A stretch of 64,000 nt of DNA from Actinoallomurus spadix. Its GTDB lineage: Bacteria; Actinomycetota; Actinomycetes; Streptosporangiales; Streptosporangiaceae. The position numbers were made by a program, and so were the translations under genes. The stretch is from positions 124,001-188,000 of the forward strand of contig NZ_JAMXMX010000008.1 in NCBI RefSeq assembly GCF_024055725.1. Reading direction: 5' to 3'. The notes beneath the pieces are model-generated. The model made no database searches, was not told the DNA's origin, and was given only the letters and a program-made list of their open reading frames with translations. Below are positions 7,296-41,621 of this stretch, one piece after another (the stretch's first letter is position 1; each line of letters opens with the position of its first letter).

Positions 7296-8122
7296 TCAGG
7301 TAGCGGTGGCGTCACAGACCTGTGGCCGGTCTGCGAAGTCCGGCCGCCGTGCGCGGCCGACGAGGGTGGTGGTGGCCGCGACGATGAACAGGGCACCGCA
7401 GATGACGGCGGTGCCGGCGGCGGTCGCGACGCGGTAGTGCAGGGACACGGCCAGCCCGGCAGCGCCGCCGGCCGCGCCGAGGAGCGTGGCGGGATGATGC
7501 GGCGGGTCCACAGCAGGGCCGAGGCGGCGGGGCCGACCAGCAGCGCCAGGGGTAGCGTCGCGCCGACGGCCGGTACGGCGGTCACCACGGTCATCGCGAG
7601 AAGGGTCAGCAGGCCGCCGTCGATGAGCCGGGTGGGGTACCCGAGCGCCCGCGTCACGGCGGGGTCGAACGCGGCGAGCACCAGTTCCTTGTGTGCGAGC
7701 GTGAGCGTGACGGTGACGAGGACGGCGGTGATCGCCGACACGGTGATGTCGCCGATTCCGGCGGTGAGGGGTGATCCGACGAGGGCGGCGCTCAGGTCCT
7801 TGCTGAAGCCCGGCCGGGTGGAGATCAGCACGACGCCGAGCGCGAGCGCGCCGCTGATCATGACACCGGAGCGCTGGTGATGCGATCGGGACGCGACGCC
7901 GCTGCGGCCCATCACCACGATGGCACCCACCGCCGCGATCCCGGAACCGATCTTGACGTCGGCCCCCACGACGGCGGCTGCGACGATGCCGAGGAAGGTG
8001 ACGTGGCCGAGGGTCCCGGTGAAGAACGCCAGGCGTCGCAGCACGACCTGAACGCCGAGGACCCCGCAGACCCCGCCGGTGAGGAGGAGCTCGGCCAGCG
8101 CCCGCTCGGTAAGCGCGCTCAT
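7296..8122 (-). pseudogene. Third metal ABC permease, frameshifted (MntB/ZnuB family)
   Basis: The frame opens at ATG 8122, overlapping the previous stop as ATGA, with GAGGTCGG upstream. It encodes a typical metal-permease N-terminus (LLLTGGVCGVLGVQVVLRRL) through ALLVGPAASALLWTRRIIP. At about 7488-7492 the family sequence moves to another frame, continuing ATLLGAAGGAAGLAVSLHYR to a stop at 7296. One missing base would restore a roughly 275-residue permease. It is either a real frameshift or a sequencing error in a G-rich run. Two intact permease genes lie upstream in the same operon. Confidence 0.75.
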
Positions 8123-8994
8123 CCGACCTCCTCGAGGTGCGACGGCCCGGTGGTGGCCGGAGCGGATCGATCCGCCGCCGGCCGGCGGCCGCGTCGTGAC
8201 CCGGTGACGGCGGTCCAGGTCGTGGTCGCCGCCAGGGACAGCGCGAAGAGGGTTCCGGTGACGACGGTGATGGCGCCTCCGGTGGCGACGTCGTACCGGG
8301 TGGAGATCAGAACACCGGCCAGCCCGCTGCCGATACCCGAGGCCACGGCGATGGCGGTCATCGCGGTGACGTCGTGGGTCCATAGGCGGGCGATGGCGGC
8401 CGGGGCGACGAGTACGGCGACGGCCAGGATCGCGCCGACGGCGGGTACGGCGACAATGATGACGGCCTCGACGGTGAGCAGCAGCGCCATGTCGATGGCG
8501 GTTGGCCGGTATCCGGCGGCGGCGTAGCCGCCGGGGTCGAACGCCCGGAACGTGAGCTGCCGGCCCGCGACGGACAGGAGCGCTAGGACGATGACGCCGA
8601 CCACCGCGACGGCGGTCAGGTCGCCGGTCCCGACGGTGAGGATCTGACCGACCGTGTAGGCGGTCAGGTCCTTGGAGAACCCGTCGCGCGCCGACAGCAG
8701 GACGACGCCGAGCGCGAACCCGGCCGACAGCACGATCCCGATCGCCGTGGTCGTGCCCTGCCCGGGGCGGCGGGACAGGGCCAGGACGCCCAGCACGACG
8801 AGCACGCCGAACAGCCCGCCGCCGGCATACAGGTCGACTCCGGCGATGGCGGCCAGCACGACGCCTGGGAAGGTCGCGTGCGTCATGGCGAGGGTGAAGA
8901 ACGGCAGCCGCCGCAGCAGGATCTGTACGCTGATCAGGCCGCCGACCGTGCCGAGGAGAACGGCTTCGAGGATGGCACGATCGACGGCGGTCAT
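8119..8994 (-). CDS. Metal ABC transporter permease (ZnuB/MntB family), second copy
   Basis: A 291-residue integral membrane protein of the ABC-3 family that forms the channel for Zn2+ or Mn2+ uptake. It has about eight to nine hydrophobic helices, beginning LLGTVGGLISVQILLRRLPF. The FFTLAMTHATFPGVVLA stretch corresponds to the family's ATPase-contact region. It ends in a basic, Pro-poor tail. It overlaps the upstream permease and the downstream frameshifted permease by ATGA junctions, so the operon is tightly coupled. Different ABC-3 permeases usually pair as heterodimers, as in TroCD. Confidence 0.88.
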   Translation of the reverse strand: MTAVDRAILEAVLLGTVGGLISVQILLRRLPFFTLAMTHATFPGVVLAAIAGVDLYAGGGLFGVLVVLGVLALSRRPGQGTTTAIGIVLSAGFALGVVLLSARDGFSKDLTAYTVGQILTVGTGDLTAVAVVGVIVLALLSVAGRQLTFRAFDPGGYAAAGYRPTAIDMALLLTVEAVIIVAVPAVGAILAVAVLVAPAAIARLWTHDVTAMTAIAVASGIGSGLAGVLISTRYDVATGGAITVVTGTLFALSLAATTTWTAVTGSRRGRRPAADRSAPATTGPSHLEEVG

Positions 8995-9857
8995 GCCGCT
9001 CTCCGCACCGAGCGCGGCCGTCGCCGGATCATCCCGGCAGCGAGCGCGATCAGGTGACAGGCGATGAGGACGAGGACGACGGTGCCGCCGGAGGCCAGCC
9101 GCAGCCCGTGGTGGATGGAGGCGTCGTAGCTGACGGCGAGTCCGGCCCAGCCGGCGAGGGCGCCGATGACGGCGGCGATCGGAACGATGAGCGCGAGCCG
9201 GTCCGACACCACGCGGGCCGCGGCGGCGGGCACGATGAGCAGCGCGATGACCAGGACGGTTCCGACGGCGCGTACGGAGGCGACGACGACCAGGGCGACG
9301 ATCGTGTTGGTAGCAAGGTCGAGCAGACCGATCCGGTATCCGCTCGCCCGGGCGCCCTCCGGGTCGAACGACCGGGCGAGCAACGGCCGTCGCAGGATCA
9401 CCATCGTGGCGATGACCAGGGCGGTCACGGCGAGGGTCTGGGTCAGCTGGGCGGGGGTGACCGTGAGGATCCGGCCGAACAGGAACGCCGTCAGGTCCGC
9501 CGTGTAGCCGGATTCCCGGGAGACGAGAACGACGCCGACGGCGAAGAAGGTGGTCAGCAGGACCGCGAGTGCGGCGTCTTCGGTGACGGCGCGGTGGCGG
9601 GTGAGCAGGGTCAGCAGCACCGCGGTCGCGGCGCCGGCGATGAGCGCGCCCCAGAAGATGCCCCCTTCGCCGCTCAGCAGGTAGCCGATGACGACGCCGG
9701 GGAAGACGGTGTGGGTGAGGGCGTCGGTCATGAAGGCCAGGCGGCGCAGGAGGATGAGCACGCCGACAGTGCCGGCCAGTGCCCCGAGGATCGCCAGTTC
9801 GGCGAGCGCCCGGGCCATGAAGGGGAACCGGAAGGGTTCGATGAGGATCTGGTTCAT
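8991..9857 (-). CDS. Metal ABC transporter permease (ZnuB/MntB family), first copy
   Basis: A 288-residue ABC-3 family permease with about eight transmembrane helices. The N-terminus MNQILIEPFRFPFMARALAE and the contact segment FMTDALTHTVFPGVVIGYLL are characteristic. It starts 10 bp after the ATPase gene and overlaps the next permease by ATGA. It should form the membrane channel with one of the downstream permeases, powered by the ATPase at 9867. Substrate is Zn2+ or Mn2+ by family; the Zur-type box upstream of the operon favours Zn2+. Confidence 0.9.
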   Translation of the reverse strand: MNQILIEPFRFPFMARALAELAILGALAGTVGVLILLRRLAFMTDALTHTVFPGVVIGYLLSGEGGIFWGALIAGAATAVLLTLLTRHRAVTEDAALAVLLTTFFAVGVVLVSRESGYTADLTAFLFGRILTVTPAQLTQTLAVTALVIATMVILRRPLLARSFDPEGARASGYRIGLLDLATNTIVALVVVASVRAVGTVLVIALLIVPAAAARVVSDRLALIVPIAAVIGALAGWAGLAVSYDASIHHGLRLASGGTVVLVLIACHLIALAAGMIRRRPRSVRRAA

Positions 9858-9866
9858 GGCGCGGCC

Positions 9867-10646
9867 TCAGGAGTGAGCGACGATGACGCGGTCGCCGCGC
9901 AGTTCGAGGGCGTGTCCACCGTAGGTGGCGCGCAGCCGGTGGGGAGTGAGGGTCGCGTTCGTGGGGCCGAAGCCGTACTGGCGTCGGTTGAGCAGGCAGA
10001 CCTCCTCACAGGCCAGGTGGGCCAGCGTCAGGTCGTGGGTGGAGACCACCACCGCGGCGCCGTCCTGCTTCAACCGGGCGATGGCGTCCAGCAGGGCCTG
10101 TTCGCTGACCGCGTCGACGCCGTTGAACGGCTCGTCGAGCAACAGCAGCCGAGGCTCGGCGGCGATGGCGCGGGCCAGCAGCACGCGCTGGCGCTGCCCG
10201 CCCGACAAGGTGCCGAACCGGTGGCGGGCGCGGTCGGCTAGGCCGACTTGCTCCAGGGCGCGGCGGGCGGCCTCCTTGTCGGTGGCCTTCGCCCGGCGCA
10301 GCCACCCGATGCGCCGGTAGCGGCCCATCAGCACGACCTGCCCGACCGAGATCGGGAACTCCGGGTCGAGGGTGTCGGCCTGGGGGACGTAGGCGACGTC
10401 GCGCCGCGCCGCGGCCGGAGGCCGGCCGAGGACGGTGATCCGTCCTCCGGCGAGCGGGACCAGGCCGAGAATCGCCTTGATGAGGGTGGACTTGCCGGCG
10501 CCGTTCGGGCCGATCAGGGCGACGGCCTCGCCGGGTGCGACCATGCCGTCGATGTTCTCCAGCGCGACGGCGGGCCCGTAGGCGACGCTGACCTCGTCCA
10601 GGTCCAGCGCCGGGGGCGGGACCTGCGGATCGGTGGCGGTGTTCAC
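9867..10646 (-). CDS. Metal ABC transporter ATP-binding protein
   Basis: A 259-residue cytoplasmic ATPase of the ZnuC/MntA/TroB group. The Walker A motif is GPNGAGKST, the Q-loop lies in VAYVPQADTLD, the signature is LSGGQRQRVLLARA, Walker B is LLLLDEPFNGVD and the switch His is in VVVSTHDLTLAH. The PFNGVD form of Walker B is typical of the Zn/Mn family. It sits between the binding-protein gene, 2 bp upstream, and the first permease. It energises import through the permeases. Confidence 0.93.
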   Translation of the reverse strand: MNTATDPQVPPPALDLDEVSVAYGPAVALENIDGMVAPGEAVALIGPNGAGKSTLIKAILGLVPLAGGRITVLGRPPAAARRDVAYVPQADTLDPEFPISVGQVVLMGRYRRIGWLRRAKATDKEAARRALEQVGLADRARHRFGTLSGGQRQRVLLARAIAAEPRLLLLDEPFNGVDAVSEQALLDAIARLKQDGAAVVVSTHDLTLAHLACEEVCLLNRRQYGFGPTNATLTPHRLRATYGGHALELRGDRVIVAHS

Positions 10647-10648
10647 GC

Positions 10649-11599
10649 TCAGCCCTTCAGCGCGGTGACGATGGTGGTGGTGTTGTGCCGTTCCAGGTCG
10701 AGGTAGGTGGCTCCGGCCGAGCCGGCGGGCCCGAGCGTGTCGCCGTACAGGGAGTCCTCGCCGGCCTCGACCTTCACCCCGGCCTGCTTCCCGATCGCCT
10801 CGGCGGTCTTGGGCGGCAGTGAGGACTCGGAGAAGATCGCCTTGACCCCGGTCGACTTGATCTTGGAGATCAGGGAGCTGAGCTGCTTGCCGGACAGTTC
10901 CGCGGAGGTGTCGAAGCTGGGGATGATCGAGCCGACGAACGTCAGGTGGTAGCGGTCGATGTAGTAGCCGAACGCGTCATGGTTGGTGACCAGCTTGCGC
11001 TGATCGGCCGGGATCGTGTTGATCTGGCCGGCGATCCAGGAGTCCAGCTGGTCAAGCTTGGTGGTGTAGGAGGTGAGGTTCGCCTCGTAGGCCGCCTTGT
11101 CGGCGGAGTCCTTGCCCTCGAACGCCGTCGCGATGTTGCGGCTCATGATCTCGGCGTTCTTCGGGTTGTGCCAGATGTGGGGGTCACCGGCGGCCTCCTC
11201 GTCGGATCCGTTGCCCTTGCGGACGGCCACGCCCTTGCTCGCGTCGACCAGCGTGCCGTGGAAGCCCGCGGACTTGATCGTCTGGTCCAGCCACCTCTCC
11301 AGGCCGACGCCGTTCTCCAGGACCACGTCGGCCTGCGCGATGGCCTGGACGTCGGCGGGTGAAGGTTCGTAGTCGTGCGGGTCGACGTTGGGTTTGAGGA
11401 GCTGGGTGATCTTGACCTTGTCGCCGCCGACGTTGCGGGCGAAGTCGGCGACCTGGGTGGTCGTGGCGACCACGTTCAGCTTCTCGCCGCCGCTCGCCGA
11501 GGCGCCGGCGTCTTTCGCGGAACTCGAACCGCAGGCCGCGGCGGCGAGCAGGCAACCCGCGACGACGGGGACGGCCGGCCGGGGGAATCGGGTGCGCAA
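10649..11599 (-). CDS. Zn/Mn ABC transporter substrate-binding lipoprotein
   Basis: A 316-residue cluster A-I solute-binding protein. The lipoprotein signal peptide MRTRFPRPAVPVVAGCLLAA ends in a lipobox with the lipidated Cys at about 23. Probable metal ligands are His in VDPHDYEPSP, His in GDPHIWHNP, His in VTNHDAFGYY and Asp in EDSLYGDTLGP, the His3-Asp set of Zn/Mn-binding ZnuA/TroA proteins. It lacks the long His-rich loop of some ZnuA proteins. The start is TTG at 11599 with GAGGAG upstream. The promoter overlaps a Zur-like box. It is the first gene of the uptake operon. Confidence 0.92.
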   Translation of the reverse strand: MRTRFPRPAVPVVAGCLLAAAACGSSSAKDAGASASGGEKLNVVATTTQVADFARNVGGDKVKITQLLKPNVDPHDYEPSPADVQAIAQADVVLENGVGLERWLDQTIKSAGFHGTLVDASKGVAVRKGNGSDEEAAGDPHIWHNPKNAEIMSRNIATAFEGKDSADKAAYEANLTSYTTKLDQLDSWIAGQINTIPADQRKLVTNHDAFGYYIDRYHLTFVGSIIPSFDTSAELSGKQLSSLISKIKSTGVKAIFSESSLPPKTAEAIGKQAGVKVEAGEDSLYGDTLGPAGSAGATYLDLERHNTTTIVTALKG

Positions 11600-11627
11600 C
11601 GTATCTCCTCGAGGGATGCCATGCTAA

Positions 11628-11642
11628 TGAAAACCGGTCCCA
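11628..11642 (-). promoter_or_regulatory. Possible second, weak Fur/Zur-type half site
   Basis: TGAAAACCGGTCCCA (plus strand) shares the left half TGAAAAC with the box before the CooC operon, but its right half is poor. It overlaps the likely -10/+1 region of the metal ABC operon. Confidence 0.3.
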
Positions 11643-11692
11643 TGTTCGCCATAACGGTAATGGTTGTCAATATCGGCAGATGTCCGTACGCT
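11642..11692. promoter_or_regulatory. Divergent promoters of the metal ABC operon and fur1 with Zur-like box
   Basis: On the minus strand TTGACA (11670-11665) and GAACAT (11647-11642) are 17 nt apart and face the binding-protein gene. On the plus strand TTGTCA (11664-11669) and TACGCT (11687-11692) are also 17 nt apart, with the fur1 ATG 6 nt further on, suggesting a leaderless transcript. The 15-bp box TGACAACCATTACCG (minus strand, 11655-11669) covers both -35 regions, so one bound Fur-family dimer could repress both directions. Confidence 0.65.
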
Positions 11693-11698
11693 CAGCGC

Positions 11699-12178
11699 AT
11701 GCGCTCCCACCTCGCCACCGTCGGCCGTTCCGGCGGTGGAGGCGTCGATGAGCCGTCCGCACGGCTCCGCGCCGCAGGCCTGTCCCCGACCCGGCGCAGA
11801 CGTCAGGTGCTGGAAGCGCTCGATGGACGGCGGCGCCCGATCGGCGCGCACGAGCTCTACGTCGAACTCGCCGGACGGGGACATTCCGTCGGGATGTCGA
11901 CGGTCTACCGCACCCTGGCCGCGCTCGCCGACGCCGGGCTCCTGCACGTCTTCATCCACGACGGTGAGACCCGGTACCGGCCGTGCGCTCCCGGCCGTCA
12001 CTACCACTTGGTGTGCCGCCGTTGCGGTGACGTCCAGGAGCACCCGGCCGCCGACGACGGCGCCTGGCTGGACGCCATCGCGGCCGAGGTCGACTTCGAA
12101 CCCGACTCGCGCCAGGCGGAGGTGTACGGCGTCTGCGGCTCGTGCCTGCGAACCGGACCCGACGGACTCGGAGGTTGA
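11699..12178 (+). CDS. Fur-family metalloregulator 1
   Basis: A 159-residue Fur-superfamily repressor. The N-terminal winged helix contains LSPTRRRRQVLEALDG and the recognition region VGMSTVYRTLAALADAGLLH. The C-terminal dimerisation domain carries the metal-site stretch GRHYHLVCRRCGD and a second pair CGSC near the end, a structural Zn(Cys)4 pattern. The start ATG lies 6 nt after a good -10, so it is probably leaderless, and the upstream Zur-like box suggests autoregulation. A second Fur paralog follows 19 bp later. Zn (Zur) or Mn (Mur) specificity cannot be decided from sequence. Confidence 0.88.
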   Translation: MRSHLATVGRSGGGGVDEPSARLRAAGLSPTRRRRQVLEALDGRRRPIGAHELYVELAGRGHSVGMSTVYRTLAALADAGLLHVFIHDGETRYRPCAPGRHYHLVCRRCGDVQEHPAADDGAWLDAIAAEVDFEPDSRQAEVYGVCGSCLRTGPDGLGG

Positions 12179-12197
12179 TACGGTCGAGAGGCGACCG

Positions 12198-12683
12198 ATG
12201 ACCAGACCCCGACCGGCCGGAGCACCGACCATGACCTCGCACTCGCCCTCCCGACCTGAGCAGCGGCCCGCCGCCACCGGCCGGGGGACACGTGTGCGGG
12301 GCACACGGCAGGCAGAGGCGTTGAGCCACGTCCTGGCGGACCTGCCGGGATTCAGTAGCGCTCAGGACATCCACGCCGAGTTGCGCCGCCGGGGCGAGCG
12401 CATCGGGCTGACCACGGTCTACCGTCATCTCCAGGTCCTCAGCGAGGACGGCGCCGTCGACACCCTCCGCGACGAGACCGGCGAGACGCTCTACCGCCGC
12501 TGCGAGACCAGCGCCCACCATCATCACGTCACCTGCCGATCGTGCGGGCGCAGTGTCGAGGTCGAAGGACGCGCGGTCGAGCGCTGGGCCGAACGCGTCG
12601 CGACCGAGGCCGGCTTCGCTGACGTTGACCACACCGTGGAGATCTTCGGCCTGTGCCCCGACTGTGCGGGCGAGCGCCGCTGA
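12198..12683 (+). CDS. Fur-family metalloregulator 2, Zur-like
   Basis: A 161-residue Fur-superfamily protein. The DNA-binding helices lie in FSSAQDIHAELRRRGERIGL and TTVYRHLQVLSEDGAVDTL. The effector domain has the His cluster CETSAHHHHVTCRSCGRSVE and a second Cys pair CPDCAGE. The ETLYRRCETSAHHHH pattern is typical of actinobacterial Zur. I start it at ATG 12198, preceded by GAGAGG; an alternative ATG lies at 12231. The gene follows fur1 on the same transcript and is the better candidate for the regulator that reads the 15-bp boxes in this region. Confidence 0.88.
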   Translation: MTRPRPAGAPTMTSHSPSRPEQRPAATGRGTRVRGTRQAEALSHVLADLPGFSSAQDIHAELRRRGERIGLTTVYRHLQVLSEDGAVDTLRDETGETLYRRCETSAHHHHVTCRSCGRSVEVEGRAVERWAERVATEAGFADVDHTVEIFGLCPDCAGERR

Positions 12684-12777
12684 CCCCCTTCCCGTGGTTG
12701 CGCGGTGATGGAAGTGCCGTCGCGCCCACCTCGCCTTCCGGGGGCGTGCGGTGGCGTAGGCGTTACCGGAAAGCCAC

Positions 12778-12792
12778 TGAAAACGGTTTTCG
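12778..12792 (+). promoter_or_regulatory. Zur-type box before the CooC-like operon
   Basis: TGAAAACGGTTTTCG contains the perfect inverted repeat GAAAAC-G-GTTTTC. It closely matches the Streptomyces Zur consensus TGAAAATGATTTTCA as I remember it. It lies in the 225-bp gap between the Zur-like gene and the CooC-like gene, about 117 bp before the latter's start. Confidence 0.65.
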
Positions 12793-12908
12793 ATTCCGAT
12801 AAGCTCTCCAGGTGCGCCAGCGCGCTGCGTCAGTGATGTCGATGTAACATTCAGTGCGCATATGTTCACTCATTGTCACTCTAGCTGGCATGAGCACGAG
12901 AGGGATTC

Positions 12909-13886
12909 ATGAAAATCGCGTTCGTCGGTAAGGGCGGAAGCGGAAAGACGACGCTGTCATCGCTGTTCGTCCGGTATCTGGCGGCTTCCGGTGCTCCGGT
13001 GGTGGCCGTCGACGCCGATATCAACCAGCATCTGGGGGTGGCGCTCGGGCTGGAGGAGCTCGATGCCGCCGCGATCCCGGCGATGGGGGAACGCCTGCCC
13101 GAGATCAAGGAATACCTGCGTGGGACCAATCCGCGGATCTCCTCCGCCGCGGCGATGGTCAAGACCACCCCGCCCGGCTACGGCTCCCGGCTCCTGCGCA
13201 TCGGTGGTGACGATCCGATCCACGCAGGTCTGACGGTGGAGGCGTCCGGGGCCCGGCTCATGGTCACCGGCCCGTTCACCGACGACGATCTCGGCGTGGC
13301 GTGCTACCACTCCAAGACCGGCGCGGTCGAGCTTTACCTCAACCATCTGGTGGACGGGCCCGCGGAGTACGTCGTCGTCGACTGCACGGCCGGGGCCGAA
13401 TCATTCGCGTCCGGCATGTTCACCCGGTTCGACCTGACGTTCCTGGTCGCCGAGCCAACTCGTAAGGGGGTGAGCGTCTACCGGCAGTGGACCGACTACG
13501 CCGCCGACTACGACGTGGCCCTCAAGGTCATCGGCAACAAGGTCGATGGCCCCGAGGACGTCGCCTTCCTGCGTGAGCAGGTCGGTGACGCGTTGCTCGG
13601 CTGCGTGGGGGACTCCAGGGCGGTTCGCGCGATGGAGCAGGGCCGGCCCTTCACGCTGACCGACCTCGCCGGCCCCGACCGACGGATGCTCGCCGCCATG
13701 CGAGAGGTGGTCGACGCCCGCCCGAAGGACTGGCCGAAGTTCACTCGCCAGGCGATCGAGTTCCATCTCAAGAACGCCGATGCCTGGGCGAATTCGGCGA
13801 CCGGCGAGGATCTGAAGGCTCAGATCGACCCGGGATTCGTCCTCGGCCCCGAGGCCATGACGGCGGCGCTGTCGGCCGTCCGGTAA
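12909..13886 (+). CDS. CooC-like P-loop ATPase
   Basis: A 325-residue SIMIBI-class ATPase of the CooC/MinD family. The deviant Walker A is IAFVGKGGSGKTTLSSLF at residues 3-20, with the second signature Lys. VVAVDADINQHLGVALG, VVVDCTAGAESFASG and KVIGNKVDG are the other nucleotide-binding motifs. CooC proteins help insert nickel into CO dehydrogenase, but no such enzyme is visible here. The gene follows a Zur-like box and precedes a permease, a TIGR03943 protein and a His-rich peptide, so a zinc-related role such as ATP-dependent metal transfer is more likely (inference). Confidence 0.8.
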   Translation: MKIAFVGKGGSGKTTLSSLFVRYLAASGAPVVAVDADINQHLGVALGLEELDAAAIPAMGERLPEIKEYLRGTNPRISSAAAMVKTTPPGYGSRLLRIGGDDPIHAGLTVEASGARLMVTGPFTDDDLGVACYHSKTGAVELYLNHLVDGPAEYVVVDCTAGAESFASGMFTRFDLTFLVAEPTRKGVSVYRQWTDYAADYDVALKVIGNKVDGPEDVAFLREQVGDALLGCVGDSRAVRAMEQGRPFTLTDLAGPDRRMLAAMREVVDARPKDWPKFTRQAIEFHLKNADAWANSATGEDLKAQIDPGFVLGPEAMTAALSAVR

Positions 13887-13916
13887 CGGCGGGCACAGGG
13901 CCGGAGGTCTGGCACG

Positions 13917-14960
13917 ATGCCGAGTGCGCCCAGGTGGCGGGCCGTCGAGGCGGCGTGGGAGGAGGACGCGGAACTCCCGCCCGCTGAGTGGGGACGACGA
14001 CCACCGATGGCCGCAGGGCCCCGCGCGCTGCTCGGTGTCGTCGCGGTGGCCGGTGTGCTGGCGGCGGGCAGAGTGCTGGCCGCCCCGCACCTGCGCGAGG
14101 CCAGGGTGCAGGGGTGGGCGACCGTCTTCGTGGCGATCTGTGTGCAGGCGTTGCCGTTCCTGGCCTTCGGCGCCACCGTCTCCGCCGCGATCTCGACGTT
14201 GGTGCCCGAGGCGTTCTGGCGGCGAGCGTTGCCGCGTCGCGCTCTCCTCGCGGTGCCGGTCGCCGGCGCGGTCGGCGCCGTACTGCCGGGATGCGAGTGC
14301 GCCTCGGTCCCGGTCGCGGGCGGTTTGATGGCCCGTGGCATCACGCCCGCCGCCGCGCTGGCCTTCCTGCTGTCGTCCCCGGCCATCAACCCCGTGGTGC
14401 TCGTGGCCACGGCCGTGGCCTTCCGCGGGCATCCGGAGATGGTCGCCGCCCGCTTTGCGGCGTCCTTGCTGGTCTCGGTGGCGGCCGGGTGGCTGTGGCT
14501 GCGGTTCGGCCGCACCGAATGGCTGCGGATCCCCTCCCGCCCGCGCGCCGCCCATGGGGCGCGGTGGCCGGGATTCGCGGCGGCGCTGCGGCACGACCTG
14601 CTGCACACCGGCGGTCTGCTGGTCGTCGGCGCGGCGATCGCGGCGACGCTCAACGTCACGGTGCCACCGGCCTGGACCGTGGCCGTGGCAGGCGTCCCGT
14701 GGCTGTCGGTCGCCGTGCTCGCGGCACTGGCCGTGGTGATGTCGATCTGCTCGGAGGCCGACGCGTTCGTCGCCACGAGCCTGACCCAGTTCTCCGCAAC
14801 GGCCAAGCTGGCCTTCCTCGTCGTCGGCCCGATGGTGGACCTCAAACTCATCGCGTTGCAGGCCGGCACCTTCGGACCGCGCTTCGCGGCCCGGTTCATC
14901 CCTATGACCTTCGCCCTGGCGATCGTCGCGAGCGCCCTCATCGGCCGGGTGCTGTTGTGA
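13917..14960 (+). CDS. Permease of the UPF0718 (DUF318/ArsP-like) family
   Basis: A 347-residue membrane protein with about eight hydrophobic helices. It carries the family motif GAVLPGCECASVPVAGGLM at about residues 120-140, with the paired Cys of GCEC that is strongly conserved. The other half has VMSICSEADAFVATSL, another family signature. Related proteins move arsenicals or have unknown cargo. It is usually paired with a TIGR03943 (DUF1980) protein, as here, where the next gene overlaps it as GTGA. In this Zur-linked setting metal or metal-complex transport is the likely function (inference). Confidence 0.85.
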   Translation: MPSAPRWRAVEAAWEEDAELPPAEWGRRPPMAAGPRALLGVVAVAGVLAAGRVLAAPHLREARVQGWATVFVAICVQALPFLAFGATVSAAISTLVPEAFWRRALPRRALLAVPVAGAVGAVLPGCECASVPVAGGLMARGITPAAALAFLLSSPAINPVVLVATAVAFRGHPEMVAARFAASLLVSVAAGWLWLRFGRTEWLRIPSRPRAAHGARWPGFAAALRHDLLHTGGLLVVGAAIAATLNVTVPPAWTVAVAGVPWLSVAVLAALAVVMSICSEADAFVATSLTQFSATAKLAFLVVGPMVDLKLIALQAGTFGPRFAARFIPMTFALAIVASALIGRVLL

Positions 14961-15679
14961 GAAAGGCCGCCCAGAACGTCGTCCTACTGGCGGCCGGCGG
15001 GACACTGCTGTGGATCACCCTGGCTGGCCGCGAGTATCTCAACTACGTCCGCCCCGGCTTCCGGATCCCGCTGATCGCCACCGGAGCCGTCCTGTGCGCG
15101 CTCGGCGGACTCGGCATCGCCACCACCTGGCGCCGTACCGCCACCGCGACCTCCGACAGGCGGGTCGACGAGCACGACCACGATCACGGGCCACGAGCCA
15201 CCTGGCTGCTCTTTCTCCCGCCACTGGTGATCGCCGTGATCGCGCCGTCGGGCCTGGGCTCCTTCACCGCCGAACGCGCCGTCGACCAGGCCCCACGACC
15301 GCAAGCCGGATCTGCCCTGGCAGCGTTGTCCGCCGACGGCCCTGCGCGGATCTCGCTGACCGAGTTCACCGCCCGTGCGTTCCAGGCCAAGGCCGGTCAC
15401 GACACCCTGACCGGGCGCCAGGTCATCCTGACCGGATTCGCTCGCCCGGCCGGCCGGAACCGGTGGATGCTGATCCGCCTGCGCATGACCTGCTGTGCGG
15501 CCGACGCCGTCCCGATGCGGGTCGTTATCAAGGGCACGCCCGTACCGCCCACCGGCACGTGGGTACGGGTCTCCGGCACATGGTCGCCGCTCTGGGCGAG
15601 CATCGACGACATCGCCTTTCCTCAGCTCACGGCCACCGTCCTGGAGCGCATCGCCCGACCCGCCGACCCCTACGAATGA
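14957..15679 (+). CDS. TIGR03943 (DUF1980) family membrane-anchored protein
   Basis: A 240-residue protein. Two N-terminal helices (VVLLAAGGTLLWITLAG; IPLIATGAVLCALGGLGIA) are followed by a cytosolic or periplasmic linker containing HDHDHG, a third hydrophobic helix and a soluble C-terminal domain with GRQVILTGFA and LIRLRMTCCAADAVPM. The MTCCAAD motif and the pairing with the UPF0718 permease define the family. The GTG start overlaps the permease stop. The His/Asp cluster and Cys pair could bind metal. Biochemical function is not established as far as I know. Confidence 0.85.
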   Translation: MRKAAQNVVLLAAGGTLLWITLAGREYLNYVRPGFRIPLIATGAVLCALGGLGIATTWRRTATATSDRRVDEHDHDHGPRATWLLFLPPLVIAVIAPSGLGSFTAERAVDQAPRPQAGSALAALSADGPARISLTEFTARAFQAKAGHDTLTGRQVILTGFARPAGRNRWMLIRLRMTCCAADAVPMRVVIKGTPVPPTGTWVRVSGTWSPLWASIDDIAFPQLTATVLERIARPADPYE

Positions 15680-15777
15680 CGCGGTGCTCCCCGCGTGCCG
15701 TACGGGCGCCCGCGCAGGCGGCACTCTTGACCGGGGTCGCCACCGGGGAAGGAGCAGACCGAGGGGGGTATCCACTG

Positions 15778-15951
15778 ATGACAGCCATGACAGAGCACCG
15801 ACAGCACACCGGCCATGTCCAGCATGATGACCATCCGCATCGGCATGGTGAGGGCCGCGGCCATGTGAGCGTGCCGCACGGCAATCACGTCGACTATGTC
15901 CATGATGGATGTCGGCATGCCGCCCACGGAGATCATTGGGACGAGCACTGA
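15778..15951 (+). CDS. Small His-rich protein, probable zinc-binding peptide
   Basis: A 57-residue protein with 14 His and many Asp/Glu residues, for example HDDHPHRHGEGRGHVSVPHG, HVDYVHDG and the C-terminal HGDHWDEH. The pattern HGxHVDYxHDGxxHxxHGDHxDEH recurs in a family of small bacterial proteins sometimes labelled zinc transporter permease, although it has no membrane segment. GAGGGG lies 9 nt before the ATG. It is 98 bp after the TIGR03943 gene and closes the Zur-linked operon. Zinc buffering or handover to the CooC-like ATPase or permease is plausible (inference). Confidence 0.7.
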   Translation: MTAMTEHRQHTGHVQHDDHPHRHGEGRGHVSVPHGNHVDYVHDGCRHAAHGDHWDEH

Positions 15952-16005
15952 ACATCGGGCATCGCTAGCCCGTCTGTCCCCAGCTGCGCCGATTTCCGGC
16001 AGAGT

Positions 16006-17046
16006 ATGGGAATGCGGGTGGGGGTGTTCTTGCTGGCGGCGCGGTTCCCCGGTCAGAGCGACGGTGAGGTGCTGACCGCCACGGTCGAGGCGGCGGTCGC
16101 TGCCGAGCGGGCCGGGTTCGACGACGTGTGGTTCGCCGAGCATCACTTCATGTCGTACGGCATCTGCCCGTCGGCGGTCACGCTCGCGTCCTATGTCCTA
16201 GGCCATACGGAACGGATCACGGTGGGGACGGCGGTGAGCGTGCTGTCCACCGCCCACCCGGTCGCACTCGCCGAGCAGACCGCGCTGTTGGACCAGGTGT
16301 CCGGAGGGCGGTTCCGGCTCGGTGTCGGGCGGGGCGGCCCGTGGGTGGACCTGGAGGTGTTCGGGACCGGACTCGCGCGGTACGAGTCCGGTTTCGCCGA
16401 AAGTCTCGACCTGCTGCTCGCCGGACTGACCCGTCCCCGGCTCTCGGCGGCCGGGCCGACCTTCGCCTTCCGAGAGATCCCAATGGTGCCGCGCCCGCGC
16501 ACTCGCCCGCCGGTCGTGGTCGCTTGCACCTCGGACGCCACCGCCGCGCTGGCCGCCGAACGCGGCCTGCCGATGCTGCTCGGCATGCACGTCGACGACG
16601 AGGGCAGGCGGCGGATGGTCGACGCGTACACCGCTGCGGCCGGGAACGCCCAGGCGGAGCATGTGGCCGCCGTCATGGCCTACGTCGCCGACACCCGGGC
16701 CGAGGCCCAGGAGCTGCTGCGTGCGGAGCTGCCACGCTGGCTGCGGCCGGGGCTGGCCGGGTACGTGCCGGTCGACGACCGGCCCTACACCCCGCGCGAC
16801 GCGGACGCGTACGCCGATCTGCTGTGCCGAATCCACCCGGTCGGCACCGCCGAAGACTGCGTGGAGACCATGGCGGCGACGGCCGAGCGCACCGGCGTCC
16901 GCCACCTGATCCTCATGGTGGAGGGCGCCGGATCCCCGCGCCGGACCCGGGAGAACATCGCCCGGCTCGGCGCCGAGGTCCTCCCTCACCTCCGCGCCCG
17001 TTTCAGGGACGGAGACCGCGAACCAGGATCCGAACTTCTCAATTGA
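16006..17046 (+). CDS. LLM-class flavin-dependent oxidoreductase
   Basis: A 346-residue bacterial luciferase-like TIM-barrel protein. It begins MRVGVFLLAARFPGQSDGEV, with FDDVWFAEHHFMSYGICPSA, TVGTAVSVLSTAHPVALAEQ and the flavin-contact stretch LDQVSGGRFRLGVGRGGPWV. Such enzymes use FMNH2 or F420 to oxidise or reduce small molecules. The gene is 54 bp after the His-rich gene on the same strand. No partner flavin reductase is visible. Its role in the metal region, if any, cannot be told. ATG 16012 is an alternative start. Confidence 0.88.
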   Translation: MGMRVGVFLLAARFPGQSDGEVLTATVEAAVAAERAGFDDVWFAEHHFMSYGICPSAVTLASYVLGHTERITVGTAVSVLSTAHPVALAEQTALLDQVSGGRFRLGVGRGGPWVDLEVFGTGLARYESGFAESLDLLLAGLTRPRLSAAGPTFAFREIPMVPRPRTRPPVVVACTSDATAALAAERGLPMLLGMHVDDEGRRRMVDAYTAAAGNAQAEHVAAVMAYVADTRAEAQELLRAELPRWLRPGLAGYVPVDDRPYTPRDADAYADLLCRIHPVGTAEDCVETMAATAERTGVRHLILMVEGAGSPRRTRENIARLGAEVLPHLRARFRDGDREPGSELLN

Positions 17047-17099
17047 CCCGAGAGTCCTAGCTGAATGGATCGACGGCCGTATGGACGGGTGGGATCAAT

Positions 17100-17672
17100 A
17101 TGAGGCAGCTGGACCGGCGTCAGGCGCTGTGGACGTTCGGTGCCGCCGGTGCGGGTCTCGTGGCGGGCGCGGTACCGGAATTCCTCCGTGGCCTCGGTGC
17201 GCCGAAGGCGGCACGCCACGTACGCAGGCCGGCTCCCACCTCCCGGCCCGATCCCGGCTATGCCCACGGACGGCCGCTGCAGGCGCTGCGCCGGCCGATC
17301 CACAGCCTGCACGATCTCCAACCGGCGGCGCCGCCCAACGCGATGGCGTTGACCATCGACGACGGCCACGACCGGATCGCCCAGGTCTCCGGAGTCACGC
17401 CGAAGTTCTTCCGTTCTCCGAGCGGCGCCTGGTCACAGCGGATCATCGACGTCGCCGCCGAGCATTCCATGATCTGCATCGACTGGCAGGTCGACCCACG
17501 TGACTGGGCCCGCCCCGGCACCACGACGATCACAGACCGCCTGCTACGCGCCCAGGCGGGCGACATCCTGCTCTGCCACGACGGCGGCGGCGACCGTTCG
17601 GAGACGATCCGGGCGCTGCGGACGGTCATCCCCGCGCTGAAACAACGCGGCCTCACCTTCGTCGCCCTCTGA
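17100..17672 (+). pseudogene. Polysaccharide deacetylase (NodB family) with internal deletion
   Basis: The reading frame is open over 190 residues. It starts with a Tat-like signal (DRRQALWTFGAAGAGLVAGA) and reaches the motif 1 region AMALTIDDGHD. It then jumps directly to the later part IAQVSGVTPKFFRSPSGAWS and DILLCHDGGGDRSETI. About 60-70 residues expected between these, including the His-x3-His metal-binding motif 2, are missing. Without those His residues the Zn-dependent deacetylase cannot work normally, so I treat it as an inactive remnant despite the intact frame. It is convergent with the ligase gene. Confidence 0.65.
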
Positions 17673-17721
17673 GGAGGCCGCACCGTCAACGTCCGCGTCC
17701 TCGTGGTCGATCATCATTCGC

Positions 17722-19389
17722 TCAGAGCCGGGGCAACCGCTGGAGCAAGGCGTTCTTGTCGATCTTGCCGACCGCTGTCAGCGGTAGTCGGTCGACTGCG
17801 ATCACGTCGTCGGGGGTCTTGTAGGCGGCCAGTCCGCGCTGTTTCAGGAAAGAGGCCAGTTCCCGGGTGCTGGGCGCCTGGCCCTGGCAGACCAGGAAGG
17901 CCACCGGCCGTTCGCCCCATTGGGCGTCCGGGGCGCCGACCAACGCCGCTGCGGTGACCGCCGGATGGGTGAGGAGGTGCTCCTCCACCTCGGTGGCGGC
18001 GATCTTCTCTCCACCACGGTTGATCTGGTCCTTGATCCGTCCGACGACTTCCAGGTTTCCCGACGGCGTCCGGCGGACGAGGTCCCCGGTGCGGTAGAAG
18101 CCATCCGCGGTGAAGGCGATCCGGTTGTGTGCCTCGGCCCGGTAGTAGCCGCACGGCGTATAGGGGCCGCGGGTGAGCAGTTCCCCGGGTTCTCCGTCGG
18201 TCACCGGCCGGCCGTCCGCGTCCACGATGAGGAGTTCGTCATCCGGGGAGATCGGCCGGCCCTGTGTCGTGCATATCAGGTCTTCGGGGTCATCGAGGCG
18301 GGTGAGGTTGATCAGGCCTTCGGCCATGCCGAACACCTGCTGGACCTGGGCGCCGAGCGCGGGCCCGATCCTGCGGGCCATCTCGTCGGCGAGCCTCGCC
18401 CCACCGACCTGGAGTATCCGCAGGCTGTCGAGCCGGTAGTGGCCGTGCTCCGCCTCCTCCAGCCAGTAGGGAACCAGCGGTGGGCTCAGTGACGTGATGG
18501 TCACGCGCCTCTCGTCGATGAGGCGGAGAGCGGTCTGCGGGCTCGGGTCGGGGCAGACGACGACCGTACCGCCGGACATGAGCGTGCCCAGCACGCCGGG
18601 GCAGGCGAGCGTGAAGTTGAACGCGATGGGGAGTACGGCCAGGTAGACCGAGTCTTCGCCCAGGGCGCAGATGTCCGCCGCGGCCCGTGCGTTGTAGGCG
18701 TAGTCGTCGTGGGTCCGCTGGACCAGCTTGGGCAGACCGGTCGTACCGCCTGACAGCAGAAGCAGCGCGAGGTCTGAGGAATCCGCACCGTCCTCGCCGG
18801 CATGCCGTGGGGTCGAGCCGCTGGTCGGCCCGGTGGACGGCGGAGCGGTGCGGTCGTACAGGTCCTCCAGCCCGGTGAAGTCGCGATGGGCGCCCGGATC
18901 GCCGCAGACCACAACATGGCGCAGCGGCGCGCCCGCCGTCTCCTTCGCCATGTCGTCGACCAGTTCCCGGGCGAGTTCGCGGTAGTCGAAGCGGGCGTGC
19001 CGGCCTGGGATGATGTACGCCGCCGCATCGCTGACCCGCACCATGTGTTCAATCTCAGTCCGGCGGTGCCCCGGCATCGCGTGCACGGGCACCGCGCCGA
19101 TGCGCTGGAGACCGAACCAGACCAGCACGAACTCCGCCCGGTTGGGCAGTTGGACCACGACCCGGTCACCGCGCTCGATGCCCAGCCGCTGGAATCCCAG
19201 TGCCAAGCGATCGGCCGCCGTGTCGAGTTCGGCGTAGGTCCAACTGTGGTCCCCGTCGACCAGGGCGACGCGTTCCGGTCGCGCCTCGGCCCACGAGCGC
19301 AGGTACGAGCCGAACGTCCGGCCACTCCAGTACCCGGCCCGCCGGTACCGCTCGGCATCGGCGTCGGACCACGTCGGATGAGCTTTCAC
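17722..19389 (-). CDS. Salicylate-AMP ligase (aryl acid adenylating enzyme)
   Basis: A 555-residue stand-alone adenylation enzyme of the DhbE/YbtE/MbtA family that activates an aryl acid and loads it on an aryl carrier domain. The P-loop is LLLLSGGTTGLPKLVQRTH, A5 is QQVFGMAEGLINLTRLDDPE, A7 is FYRTGDLVRR and A10 is LTAVGKIDK. The pocket segment IAFNFTLACPGVLGT has Asn-Phe and Cys where salicylate-specific YbtE/MbtA have them, rather than the Tyr/Ser of dihydroxybenzoate enzymes. It is transcribed away from the NRPS genes from a shared gap with a Zur-like box. It should load the ArCP of NRPS1. Confidence 0.93.
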   Translation of the reverse strand: MKAHPTWSDADAERYRRAGYWSGRTFGSYLRSWAEARPERVALVDGDHSWTYAELDTAADRLALGFQRLGIERGDRVVVQLPNRAEFVLVWFGLQRIGAVPVHAMPGHRRTEIEHMVRVSDAAAYIIPGRHARFDYRELARELVDDMAKETAGAPLRHVVVCGDPGAHRDFTGLEDLYDRTAPPSTGPTSGSTPRHAGEDGADSSDLALLLLSGGTTGLPKLVQRTHDDYAYNARAAADICALGEDSVYLAVLPIAFNFTLACPGVLGTLMSGGTVVVCPDPSPQTALRLIDERRVTITSLSPPLVPYWLEEAEHGHYRLDSLRILQVGGARLADEMARRIGPALGAQVQQVFGMAEGLINLTRLDDPEDLICTTQGRPISPDDELLIVDADGRPVTDGEPGELLTRGPYTPCGYYRAEAHNRIAFTADGFYRTGDLVRRTPSGNLEVVGRIKDQINRGGEKIAATEVEEHLLTHPAVTAAALVGAPDAQWGERPVAFLVCQGQAPSTRELASFLKQRGLAAYKTPDDVIAVDRLPLTAVGKIDKNALLQRLPRL

Positions 19390-19474
19390 GACAACGGCTT
19401 CCTCTCGGCGTCGCCTCCGGCCGGTGCCGGGGGTTGGCGCGGGACTGGATCATGTGCATACTGTTCGACGTTAA

Positions 19475-19489
19475 TGATAATCGTTACCG
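19475..19489. promoter_or_regulatory. Fur/Zur-type box in the ligase/NRPS divergent promoter
   Basis: TGATAATCGTTACCG lies in the 245-bp gap between the ligase and NRPS1 genes. The wider stretch 19470-19488 matches the classical Fur consensus GATAATGATAATCATTATC at 16 of 19 positions. It also matches the boxes at 11655 and 12778. GATAAT (19476-19481) inside it could be the NRPS -10. The rest of the gap holds nothing else I recognise. Confidence 0.65.
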
Positions 19490-35073: not shown

Positions 35074-36312
35074 ATGAACGCACCTGTGCCCCCGCCGCCG
35101 GCCGACCAGCCGACCGGCACCACGCCTCCCCGGGACTTCCCGATGCGCCGGGCCTGCCCCTTCTCCGCGCCTCAGGAGTACGCCGCACTGCGTGCCGAGG
35201 AACCCGTCGCCCGCGTGACCCTGCCGACCGGCCGTCCCGCCTGGGCGGTCACGCGTTACGACGATGTCCGTGCCCTGCTGTCCGACCCGCGCATCAGCGC
35301 CGACATCCGCCGACCGAACTTCCCCGCCCTCGGGGTGGGCGAGCAAGAGGCCGGCGCCAGACTGCGTCCGTTCATCCGCACCGACCCGCCCGAGCACACC
35401 CGCTACCGGCGGATGCTGCTCCCGGAGTTCACCGTCCGTAAGGTCCGCGCCATGCGGCCCACCGTGCAGGACCTCGTGGACGGCATCCTGCGGGACATGC
35501 TCGCCGGACCGCAGCCCGTCGACTTCGTCGCGTCCTACGCCAATGCGGTGTCGACGTCGGTGATCTGCGGGCTCCTCGGCATCCCCAGGGAGAACCTGGA
35601 GTTCTTCCGTGACGTCACCCGCGTCTCCGGCTCCAGGACCAGCACGGCCGAGGAGGTCGCCGAGGCGCTGAACGGTCTGTTCACGCTGCTGTCCGACCTC
35701 ATCGCGCAACGGCGGGAGGACCCCGGCGAGGACCTGCTGTCCAAGCTGGTCACCGAGCACCTGCTGACCGGCGACCTAACCATGCACGAGCTGCTCTCGA
35801 CCGTCGGCATCACCATCAACGCCGGTCGCGAGACCACTACCAGCATGATCGCGCTGTCGACCCTGCTTCTGCTCCGGCGCTCCGACCTGATGGAGCAACT
35901 GCGCGCCGAGCCCTCCCTGATGCCCTCCGCAGTGGAGGAACTGCTGCGGGCGCTCTCGGTCGCGGACTCCATCCCCCTGCGCATCGCCGCCGAGGAGATC
36001 GAGCTGTCCGGTCGGACGATCCCCGCCGACGACGGCATCATCGGCCTGCTCGCCGGGGCCAACCACGACCCCGACCGGTTCCCCGACCCGGAGACGGTCG
36101 ACTTCCACCGCGAGGACAACCCTCACCTGGCCTTCGGGCACGGCATGCACCAGTGCATCGGTCAGCAGCTCGCCCGCCTCGAAATGGAGATCGCGCTGCA
36201 GACACTGATCCGTGGTGTTCCGACACTGCGGCTCGCGGTGCCCTACGAAGAGATCGTGTTCAAACACGACTCGGCCACCTTCGGCGTCGAGAAGATGCCG
36301 GTGGCCTGGTGA
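35074..36312 (+). CDS. Cytochrome P450
   Basis: A 412-residue soluble class I P450. The I-helix oxygen-binding segment is ITINAGRETTTSMIAL, the ExxR region lies in the 270-300 stretch (SAVEELLRALSVADSIPLRI), and the heme-binding loop is HLAFGHGMHQCIGQQLARLE with the Cys thiolate. The N-terminus is Pro-rich without a membrane anchor. No ferredoxin gene is adjacent, so redox partners come from elsewhere. It starts 28 bp after the reductase gene. Coelibactin-type clusters also contain a P450. It may hydroxylate or oxidise the peptide chain. Confidence 0.92.
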   Translation: MNAPVPPPPADQPTGTTPPRDFPMRRACPFSAPQEYAALRAEEPVARVTLPTGRPAWAVTRYDDVRALLSDPRISADIRRPNFPALGVGEQEAGARLRPFIRTDPPEHTRYRRMLLPEFTVRKVRAMRPTVQDLVDGILRDMLAGPQPVDFVASYANAVSTSVICGLLGIPRENLEFFRDVTRVSGSRTSTAEEVAEALNGLFTLLSDLIAQRREDPGEDLLSKLVTEHLLTGDLTMHELLSTVGITINAGRETTTSMIALSTLLLLRRSDLMEQLRAEPSLMPSAVEELLRALSVADSIPLRIAAEEIELSGRTIPADDGIIGLLAGANHDPDRFPDPETVDFHREDNPHLAFGHGMHQCIGQQLARLEMEIALQTLIRGVPTLRLAVPYEEIVFKHDSATFGVEKMPVAW

Positions 36313-37157
36313 ACACCTCCTCCCCGACCTCTCGAACCACCGGTGCCGGGCTCGGGGTTCCCGGGCAGCGCCGCCTCGGCCCGTGGCTGCGGCGCTGGGC
36401 GGCATACCCGGGCGCGCGGTTCCGGCTGGTCTGTCTCCCGCACGCCGGGGGCGGGGCCAGCTCCTACCGTCCCTGGGCGGCTCTGCTGCCCCCTGACGTC
36501 GAGCTGATCGCCGTGCAGTACCCCGGCAGAGAAGACCGCTGGAACGACCCCATGGTCGACCGAATGGAAGAGCTGGTGAACGCGGTCGCCGACTCCCTCC
36601 TGCCGCTGATCGATCGTCCGTACGCCCTGTTCGGCCACAGCATGGGCTCGGCCATCGCCTGGGAACTCGCCCATGAGCTGCGCGCCCGGGGGGTATCCGG
36701 GCCACGGCGACTGTTCGCCTCCGGTCGCGAGGCACCGGGGACCGCCCAGGTCGGCGAGGTGCACCGGCAGGACGACGCCGCGCTGTGCGCCGAGTTGAAA
36801 CGGCTCGGCGGCACCCACCACGAGGTGCTGGCCGACCCCGAGCTACGCGCGGCCGTGCTCGGTTACATCCGCAACGACTACCGCCTCATCGAGACCTACC
36901 GGCCCGCGGCGCGTCCCCTGCTGAACTGCCCGATCGAGGTGTTCACCGGTGACGTCGATCCCGAGGTGCGGCTCGCGCGGAGCGATGTCCGGGCCGGGGG
37001 ATGGGCGGCCCTGACCACCGCACACACCGCCGTCCAGGTCTTCCCCGGCGGCCACTTCTACCTCAACTCCCAGCGTGAACGGGTCGTCAGCACCGTCCTC
37101 AGGCGGCTGAGCCCCTCGTTCACCCGGGACGCCCGAGGGTGGCCCAGCACTCCGTGA
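36309..37157 (+). CDS. Type II thioesterase
   Basis: A 282-residue alpha/beta-hydrolase of the GrsT/PchC/YbtT family. The first strand is RLVCLPHAGGGASSYRPWAA, the nucleophile elbow is LFGHSMGSAIAWELA and the catalytic His lies in VFPGGHFYL. Such enzymes hydrolyse mis-loaded thioesters from NRPS carrier domains. A 30-residue Ser/Thr/Gly-rich N-terminal extension precedes the domain. I start it at GTG 36309, overlapping the P450 stop as GTGA. The intact Ser nucleophile contrasts with the Cys in the NRPS2 TE. Confidence 0.9.
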   Translation: MNTSSPTSRTTGAGLGVPGQRRLGPWLRRWAAYPGARFRLVCLPHAGGGASSYRPWAALLPPDVELIAVQYPGREDRWNDPMVDRMEELVNAVADSLLPLIDRPYALFGHSMGSAIAWELAHELRARGVSGPRRLFASGREAPGTAQVGEVHRQDDAALCAELKRLGGTHHEVLADPELRAAVLGYIRNDYRLIETYRPAARPLLNCPIEVFTGDVDPEVRLARSDVRAGGWAALTTAHTAVQVFPGGHFYLNSQRERVVSTVLRRLSPSFTRDARGWPSTP

Positions 37158-37223
37158 CCGGACCGCCCAGCCCGAGCGGTCCGTGGGGATCCGGCGACGG
37201 CCCCACCGCACCCAGGAGAGAAC

Positions 37224-41547: not shown

Positions 41548-41621
41548 AGACGCGCGCCGGGCACCACCGGCCGGCAGAGCCGGTCTCTTCAGCAAGATCA
41601 TTCCCCGGAAGGAGGCTGACA

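Follow-up and report, generated by a model that had tools for sequence, protein, structure and literature searches.

The question raised by this locus is whether one short operator places a metal importer, a CooC-like ATPase operon, and a metallophore-type gene cluster under a common regulator, and which metal that regulator would sense. The window, i.e., the whole stretch of 64,000 nucleotides analyzed, is part of the 8.02 Mb genome of Actinoallomurus spadix (contig NZ_JAMXMX010000008.1, labeled C70, positions 124,001 to 188,000). A sequence-only reading had pointed to three copies of a 15-bp Fur/Zur-type box at these genes, and their letters, coordinates, and strands were all reproduced; a fourth copy, absent from that reading, was identified 27 bp from site 1 (box 1b). 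All four boxes fit the published actinobacterial Zur motif TGaNAANNNTTNtCA (PMC5472717; PMC2823685) and are very probably operators of the zinc-responsive repressor Zur. The importer and the zincophore are known kinds of Zur target, and the CooC-like operon is the new part.

Zur-type boxes in the window

The actinobacterial Zur box is a 15-bp palindrome of 7-1-7 architecture with the consensus TGANAANNNTTNTCA (PMC5472717; PMC2823685), and boxes were scored by the number of matched fixed positions of this palindrome out of ten. Box 2, likened from the start to the Streptomyces Zur consensus, reaches nine of them. The pattern TGANAANNNTTNNCG was found exactly three times in the window compared to a mean of 0.03 and a largest value of 1 in 100 dinucleotide shuffles, bearing out one box common to the three original sites. 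Their shared CG ending is also correct but is a local variant only: in five of the ten genus cooC boxes the last two letters are CA, completing the full palindrome.

A symmetric matrix built from 21 boxes upstream of znuA and cooC genes in other genomes (22 were typed and one 14-letter box was excluded) gave the same four places as the top scores of the window, with 26.2 for site 2, 20.2 for site 3, 18.8 for site 1, and 12.2 for 11628-11642. In a null of 60 first-order Markov sequences the best score had a mean of 11.0 and a maximum of 19.5, and neither the third nor the fourth best score went beyond 11.6, such that box 1b lies only narrowly above the null. Site 2 is not out-of-sample by letters because one training box is identical to it; sites 1, 1b, and 3 are.

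The promoter elements at site 1 were read by eye, with TTGACA, 17 bp, and GAACAT as the putative importer promoter and TTGTCA, 17 bp, TACGCT, 6 bp, and ATG for fur1, whose start would lie just 3' of its own -10-like hexamer. Box 1a overlaps the minus-strand TTGACA (11665-11670) and the plus-strand TTGTCA (11664-11669), in line with the proposal that it covers both -35 elements, but the sigma-70 scan reported no promoter. Similar arrangements have been described in Corynebacterium glutamicum, where Zur sites cover -35 regions, divergent genes share an operator, and leaderless targets occur (PMC2823685). The ZnuA/AztC-like gene had matches of at least 80% identity in seven of the eight genus genomes including its own and none in G003. 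The box 1a sequence TGACAAYCATTNCCR was present in six of the seven orthologous promoters including its own, with one full 10/10 palindrome instead in the seventh (L054). Box 1b was likewise conserved, as TGGGAMCGGTTTTCA occurred 27-28 bp downstream in five of the seven including its own, and the second box was weaker in L052.

Table 1. Predicted Zur boxes and annotated genes of the window.
Feature	Position	Strand	Evidence or remark
Predicted Zur box 1a, TGACAACCATTACCG	11655..11669	-	8/10; over -35-like hexamers of both divergent promoters (read by eye)
Predicted Zur box 1b, TGGGACCGGTTTTCA	11628..11642	-	8/10; just 3' of importer -10-like hexamer
Predicted Zur box 2, TGAAAACGGTTTTCG	12778..12792	+	9/10; before TANNNT-type -10-like TAAGCT 12800-12805 of CooC-like operon (by eye)
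Predicted Zur box 3, TGATAATCGTTACCG	19475..19489	+	8/10; ligase/NRPS gap
Importer second ABC-3 permease	8119..8994	-	PF00950 2.2e-48
Importer ABC-3 permease	8991..9857	-	PF00950 1.5e-56; AztB-like, below cut-off
Importer ABC ATPase	9867..10646	-	family search
Zinc/manganese-type substrate-binding lipoprotein, ZnuA/AztC-like	10649..11599	-	PF01297 3.9e-84; NCBIfam AztC 1.4e-75, below cut-off
fur1, divergent Fur-family regulator	11699..12178	+	PF01475 1.6e-18; best solved relative 2o03 FurB 6.5e-22
fur2, Zur paralog	12231..12683 (start 12198 also possible)	+	3mwm 1.3e-45; 2o03 FurB 7.9e-45
CooC-like SIMIBI-type ATPase, invariant C132-Y-H134	12909..13886	+	PF01656, fold, alignments
PF03773 permease	13917..14960	+	PF03773 1.4e-47
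TIGR03943 putative permease subunit, DUF1980 C-terminal domain	14957..15679	+	138.1 bits, cut-off 88.8; PF21537
57-aa His-rich peptide, possibly metal-binding	15778..15951	+	sequence reading; no Pfam family
Luciferase-like monooxygenase	16006..17046	+	PF00296 6.4e-68
Polysaccharide deacetylase-like protein	17100..17672	+	family search
Aryl-AMP ligase	17722..19389	-	TIGR02275 7.5e-193, below cut-off
Two non-ribosomal peptide synthetase (NRPS) genes	19635-26438, 26435-31951	+	3 A, 3 condensation-type, 4 PCP, methyltransferase, thioesterase
Irp3-like thiazolinyl imine reductase fused to methyltransferase	ORF 33015-35045	+	PF21390
CYP105N1-type P450	35074-36312	+	best match 3tyw/4fxb 659.7 bits vs next 328.6
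Thioesterase, methyltransferase, two ABC exporter-type proteins, salicylate synthase	36153..43010	+	family searches; TIGR03494 439.1 bits, cut-off 325.15

The same box in the genome, the genus, and related actinomycetes

In the whole genome, the loose motif TGANAANNNTTNNCR gave 14 rows representing 13 places compared to four rows for the control, and five of the 13 are at metal genes: the three window sites, C71:48793, and C17:106623. The C71 site (TGACAATCATTTTCA) is a perfect palindrome upstream of znuA, which is followed by an ATPase and a permease and adjoined by a FUR-family gene, and the C17 site is identical to site 2 and upstream of a second CooC-like gene. The exact palindrome TGANAANNNTTNTCA was found at 19 places in the eight genus genomes, where its reversed control gave none; 13 of the 19 are at znuA-type or cooC genes (seven C71-type znuA, five cooC, and one window-type znuA), one precedes a folD-like gene, and five are elsewhere, four of which were inspected. 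A perfect palindrome lies directly 5' of seven of the eight more distant ZnuA-type matches of the genus, and L062, the remaining one, has 8/10. The motif thus recurs at metal genes outside the window.

Three further occurrences were recorded. An exact palindrome (TGAGAATGATTTTCA; L242, G001:C1:2397704-2397718) lies upstream of the folD-like gene (assigned by reading) at the end of a window-type importer operon. Another copy (TGACAATCATTAACA; L008, C70:70734-70748), one mismatch away from the palindrome, is flanked by genes read as encoding a trypsin-like protease and a short protein, with no evident metal gene. Finally, TGAGAACGGTTCCCG occurs twice, identical and 45 bp apart, within a direct repeat (L004 and L005, C26:3028-3087).

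A CooC-like gene was identified in all eight genus genomes, at ten loci, and at E 1e-60 or better in 43 of 100 relatives, 35 of which are outside the genus. Within 330 bp upstream, nine of the ten genus loci have a box of 9/10 or 10/10 and the tenth (L041) has 7/10. Among the 35 genomes outside the genus (family and order level), boxes were scored for the 22 best-scoring loci, with at least 7/10 in all 22 and at least 8/10 in 19, giving a box of at least 8/10 upstream of cooC in 28 of the 32 scored loci. A 330-bp stretch inside the same cooC genes scored at most 7. Random 330-bp segments of the A. spadix genome scored at least 8/10 in 24 of 3000 cases, and 9 or 10 likewise in 24, real sites included, and a score of 7/10 alone is weak evidence because 466 of the 3000 reached it. 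A wider set of named cooC loci, the best 80 among 556 relatives, had a box of at least 8/10 in 17 cases, including 16 of the 21 loci outside Streptomyces; these 16 belong to Actinoallomurus, Actinomadura, Planomonospora, Planobispora, Sinosporangium, Thermobifida, Allonocardiopsis, Streptantibioticus, and two metagenome-assembled genomes named to family or order. Taken on these sequences, the CooC-like ATPase is likely a further Zur target that is conserved in related genera.

The genome encodes seven FUR-family proteins, among which the Zur-like ones are the C71 zur adjoining the znuACB locus, fur2, and a copy on contig C12. By its sequence Fur2 is a Zur paralog, keeping the His/Cys zinc ligands (positions by reading of alignments), with 62% identity to the C71 zur and 93% to the C12 copy; its best solved relative 3mwm is S. 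coelicolor Zur. Fur1 shares 34-37% identity with the Zur copies, and in the alignment it lacks the His before EIFG. The tandem Fur genes noted from the sequence are therefore one Zur paralog and one divergent family member, and the Fur/Zur-type regulator suggested with them agrees with the metal regulon and the Zur likeness but is best taken as Zur, given the matches of Fur2 to 3mwm and FurB (Table 1).

The boxes could instead belong to Fur2 and its near-identical C12 copy, which would then be a specialized regulator distinct from the C71 Zur and serve, e.g., in nickel or cobalt handling. A Fur-like motif does occur within 1.5 kb upstream of cooC in seven of the ten genus loci as well as in L096 and L207, the genus cooC boxes have CGG or CCG at the center compared to TCA or CCA in the C71-type znuA boxes, and a boxed cooC is near [NiFe] hydrogenase genes in A. 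purpureus. This alternative is nonetheless unlikely: the motif test found no Fur-like motif within 1.5 kb upstream in 21 of the 22 family and order loci (all with cooC matches of at least 7/10) or at the C17 paralog, and a single consensus and a single matrix fit both the znuA and the cooC boxes. On the motif test, a Zur encoded elsewhere is the simplest reader of the cooC box. For the same loci, and with the zur-znuACB locus on C71, the regulon is not only a local one as had been supposed.

The CooC-like ATPase and its operon

The CooC-like protein has the MinD/CooC-type ATPase fold and a P-loop. Sequence search against solved structures identified CooC 3kje (2.2e-9), and Foldseek of the model (pLDDT 89, pTM 0.90) placed 3kje first (5.5e-12), followed by MinD, partition proteins, nitrogenase Fe protein, and ATPase-type HypB. 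The metal motif of CooC, the accessory ATPase of CO dehydrogenase, is Cys-x-Cys. Cys132 and His134 were invariant in 98 of 98 CooC-like sequences and align with the Cys-Tyr-Cys of 3kje. The N-terminal P-loop and the first Cys of the motif are shared with CooC, whereas Cys-x-His replaces Cys-x-Cys, the length is 325 rather than 254 residues, and a predicted Zur box is present. The likeness to ATPase-type HypB (5auq, 3vx3) is one of fold class (6.1e-8), with 18-20% identity in structural alignment. The protein matches PF01656 and not PF02492, unlike a COG0523 zinc GTPase.

Downstream of the ATPase gene, the operon was re-annotated. It continues through the permease, the TIGR03943 subunit, and the 57-aa His-rich peptide to the luciferase-like monooxygenase and the deacetylase-like gene. 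The TIGR03943 gene overlaps by GTGA the gene for the PF03773 permease, which is of the COG0701 type. A 313-aa ORF (15010-15951) was dropped in favor of the TIGR03943 gene on the basis of frames and base composition.

The C17 paralog is followed by two SIS-domain genes and by hypA as the third gene downstream, which recalls HypB; no hydrogenase genes were seen in the 16 kb read around this copy (C17 100001-116035; L031 6728-10033), the part of the genome to which the search for hydrogenase was confined. In A. purpureus (L094 6965-14945), the genes that follow a boxed cooC are hypF, which is oppositely oriented, one SIS-domain gene (with another assigned by reading), and those for both [NiFe] hydrogenase subunits, small and large. 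It is possible that A. spadix has lost its hydrogenase. The A. spadix genome has no PF02492 (HypB-type) gene.

Other neighbors recur at cooC loci. A luciferase-like monooxygenase near cooC of Planobispora longispora (L100 8554-9600) has a start very similar by reading to that of the window protein at 16006-17046. A 128-aa protein of the SCO5389 family (Pfam KH_NucS_shadow) was identified by family scan in the window (6852-7238, minus strand) and near cooC in L093 (8060-8470), and by reading also near cooC in L095, L100, L101, L106, and L111, representing several genera.

A literature search, mostly of papers outside subscription journals, did not find a Zur-controlled CooC-like ATPase described. 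The section of PMC2823685 on predicted Zur regulons, supplement aside, gives znuACB plus a COG0523 GTPase as their core and does not mention such an ATPase.

The zincophore-type cluster and the proposed zinc response

Site 3 is indeed in the ligase/NRPS gap, as had been noted. The genes around it include the coelibactin content of a divergent ligase and NRPS pair, a CYP105N1, and two ABC exporters (SCO7681-7690; PMC3430247). Two promoters, those of SCO7676 and SCO7681/7682, are bound by Zur in S. coelicolor (PMC5472717; PMC6103462), and the latter gap corresponds to the one that holds site 3. The coelibactin metabolite has not been identified in S. coelicolor according to the account in PMC3430247. 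No counterparts of the ferredoxin and metal-transport genes SCO7676-7680 were present among the genes annotated at approximately 7-43 kb, the part of the window that was scanned by family. The best solved relatives of the P450, 3tyw/4fxb, are CYP105N1 of the coelibactin cluster.

The ligase was matched at 1e-190 or better, the limit for keeping matches in the class search, in three other genomes among 296 class genomes including its own; two of these three distant loci have a divergent NRPS (by reading) and an AT-rich gap palindrome with best scores of 8 and 9 of 10. The search within the genus gave mostly other acyl-CoA-ligase-like genes. The closest relative has a C-terminal piece of the ligase (G004:C19:82871-83236), 90% identical with one stop codon, which may be a remnant of the cluster.

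Site 3, and perhaps the whole set, might alternatively be an iron-responsive Fur site for an iron siderophore. The agreement with the classical Fur box noted earlier, 16 of 19 bases, was confirmed, and the cluster chemistry (salicylate and thiazoline reductase) would equally suit iron. This is improbable, since coelibactin in S. coelicolor is under Zur (PMC5472717; PMC3430247; PMC6103462), the perfect palindrome of the same motif precedes seven of the eight distant ZnuA-type genus genes, and C. glutamicum Zur boxes such as TAATGATAACGGTTATCATTT themselves contain the Fur-box core (PMC2823685). Iron control by Fur or IdeR/DmdR was not favored either. Even when three mismatches were allowed, the window contained no match to the 19-bp IdeR/DmdR-type consensus, as the reading by eye had suggested.

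Several results weigh against a Zur regulon of this extent. The matrix was trained on boxes chosen by the same consensus being tested, and a generic sigma-70 scan of 11560-12950 gave no promoter where the hexamers were read by eye. Eight of the 13 genomic places of the loose motif have no recognizable metal genes, although not all were viewed closely, and the full palindrome with one mismatch occurs at 13 places compared to nine for the control; looser matching therefore fails to separate sites from noise. Both counts would suit a chance origin, in which AT-rich promoter DNA of a GC-rich genome mimics the palindrome, but this is highly implausible in view of the dinucleotide shuffles and the Markov null, the zero reversed controls for the exact motif in eight genomes, and the conservation across genera. 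Four of the 32 genus, family, and order cooC loci reach only 7/10, and an 8/10 match in L221 lacks the central TT. Among the best 80 named loci, 58 of the 59 from Streptomyces (the exception being S. humicola) and five of the 21 others have no box of at least 8/10, and therefore the box accompanies cooC in a subset of the actinomycetes only. For site 3, conservation amounts to two distant clusters: the third distant ligase locus and three genus ligases of 48-56% identity are without a box (best 5-7/10), and within the genus the cluster itself was found only in the A. spadix genome. Model confidence of the ATPase is lowest at the C-x-H loop (residues 130-133).

In addition, two usual parts of such regulons, a COG0523-type gene and an L28 paralog, were not found. 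A PF02492 search that was positive in 13 of 14 control genomes gave no match in the A. spadix genome, and CobW_C is present in one of the eight genus genomes. The expected branch of ribosomal paralogs was not seen for L28, the only ribosomal protein examined, which has one genome copy with four cysteines and a best upstream score of 6/10, i.e., no box. The regulon therefore does not simply duplicate that of Streptomyces. The lack of a PF02492 match made it attractive to see the CooC-like ATPase as a substitute for COG0523, but this was rejected other than as part of the more speculative reading below: among the 100 relatives, CobW_C is present in 23 of the 43 that have cooC and in 11 of the 57 that lack it (counted by hand, with partial CobW_C matches scored as present), so that the two are not mutually exclusive.

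The S. coelicolor Zur regulon includes znuABC, znuB2C2, rpmG/B, rpmF, coelibactin SCO7676-92, and zitB (PMC5472717). Shared with it are the 15-bp 7-1-7 box, a zinc ABC importer, the coelibactin-type ligase/NRPS gap, and a zur gene adjoining znuACB; unlike it, the box in A. spadix also heads the CooC-like operon, the importer promoter region is common with fur1, there are three Zur-like paralogs, and a COG0523-type gene and an L28 paralog were not found. The palindrome resembles that of the actinobacterial regulons predicted in PMC2823685, as would the putative operators over divergent -35 regions and the putatively leaderless targets.

The sequences and the model show the boxes, their conservation, the protein families, and the fold; promoter elements, Zur binding, zinc-dependent repression, and chaperone function with its metal are inferred from these families and from what the cited papers describe in Streptomyces and Corynebacterium. 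Under zinc-replete conditions, dimeric Zn-Zur would occupy the 7-1-7 palindromes at core promoters and block RNA polymerase; for the importer, one box would lie over the two divergent -35 elements and the other over the transcription start. At low zinc, release of Zur would allow production of the ZnuA/AztC-like ABC importer, of fur1, and of a coelibactin-type zincophore, together with the ATPase, the two permease proteins, and the His-rich peptide of the CooC-like operon. The ATPase may then load zinc (or nickel) into client proteins, a step that is proposed tentatively by analogy with nickel loading by CooC and that would use an ATP-driven dimer binding the metal at Cys-x-His. More speculative still is that the Zur-controlled Cys-x-His CooC-type ATPase and the PF03773/TIGR03943 pair might represent a second class of zinc metallochaperone distinct from COG0523, perhaps the main one in Actinoallomurus, with a paralog that may once have served [NiFe] hydrogenase nickel; the group of this proposed class would be the Streptosporangiales.

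A motif spotted by eye has thereby been turned into a testable zinc regulon, the pairing of coelibactin with Zur now includes a genome of Actinoallomurus, and the CooC-like ATPase is named as a likely target of Zur that is conserved. Should this ATPase act as a zinc chaperone, CooC-class ATPases would deliver zinc as well as nickel, and the box would give a direct handle on when the ATPase is needed.

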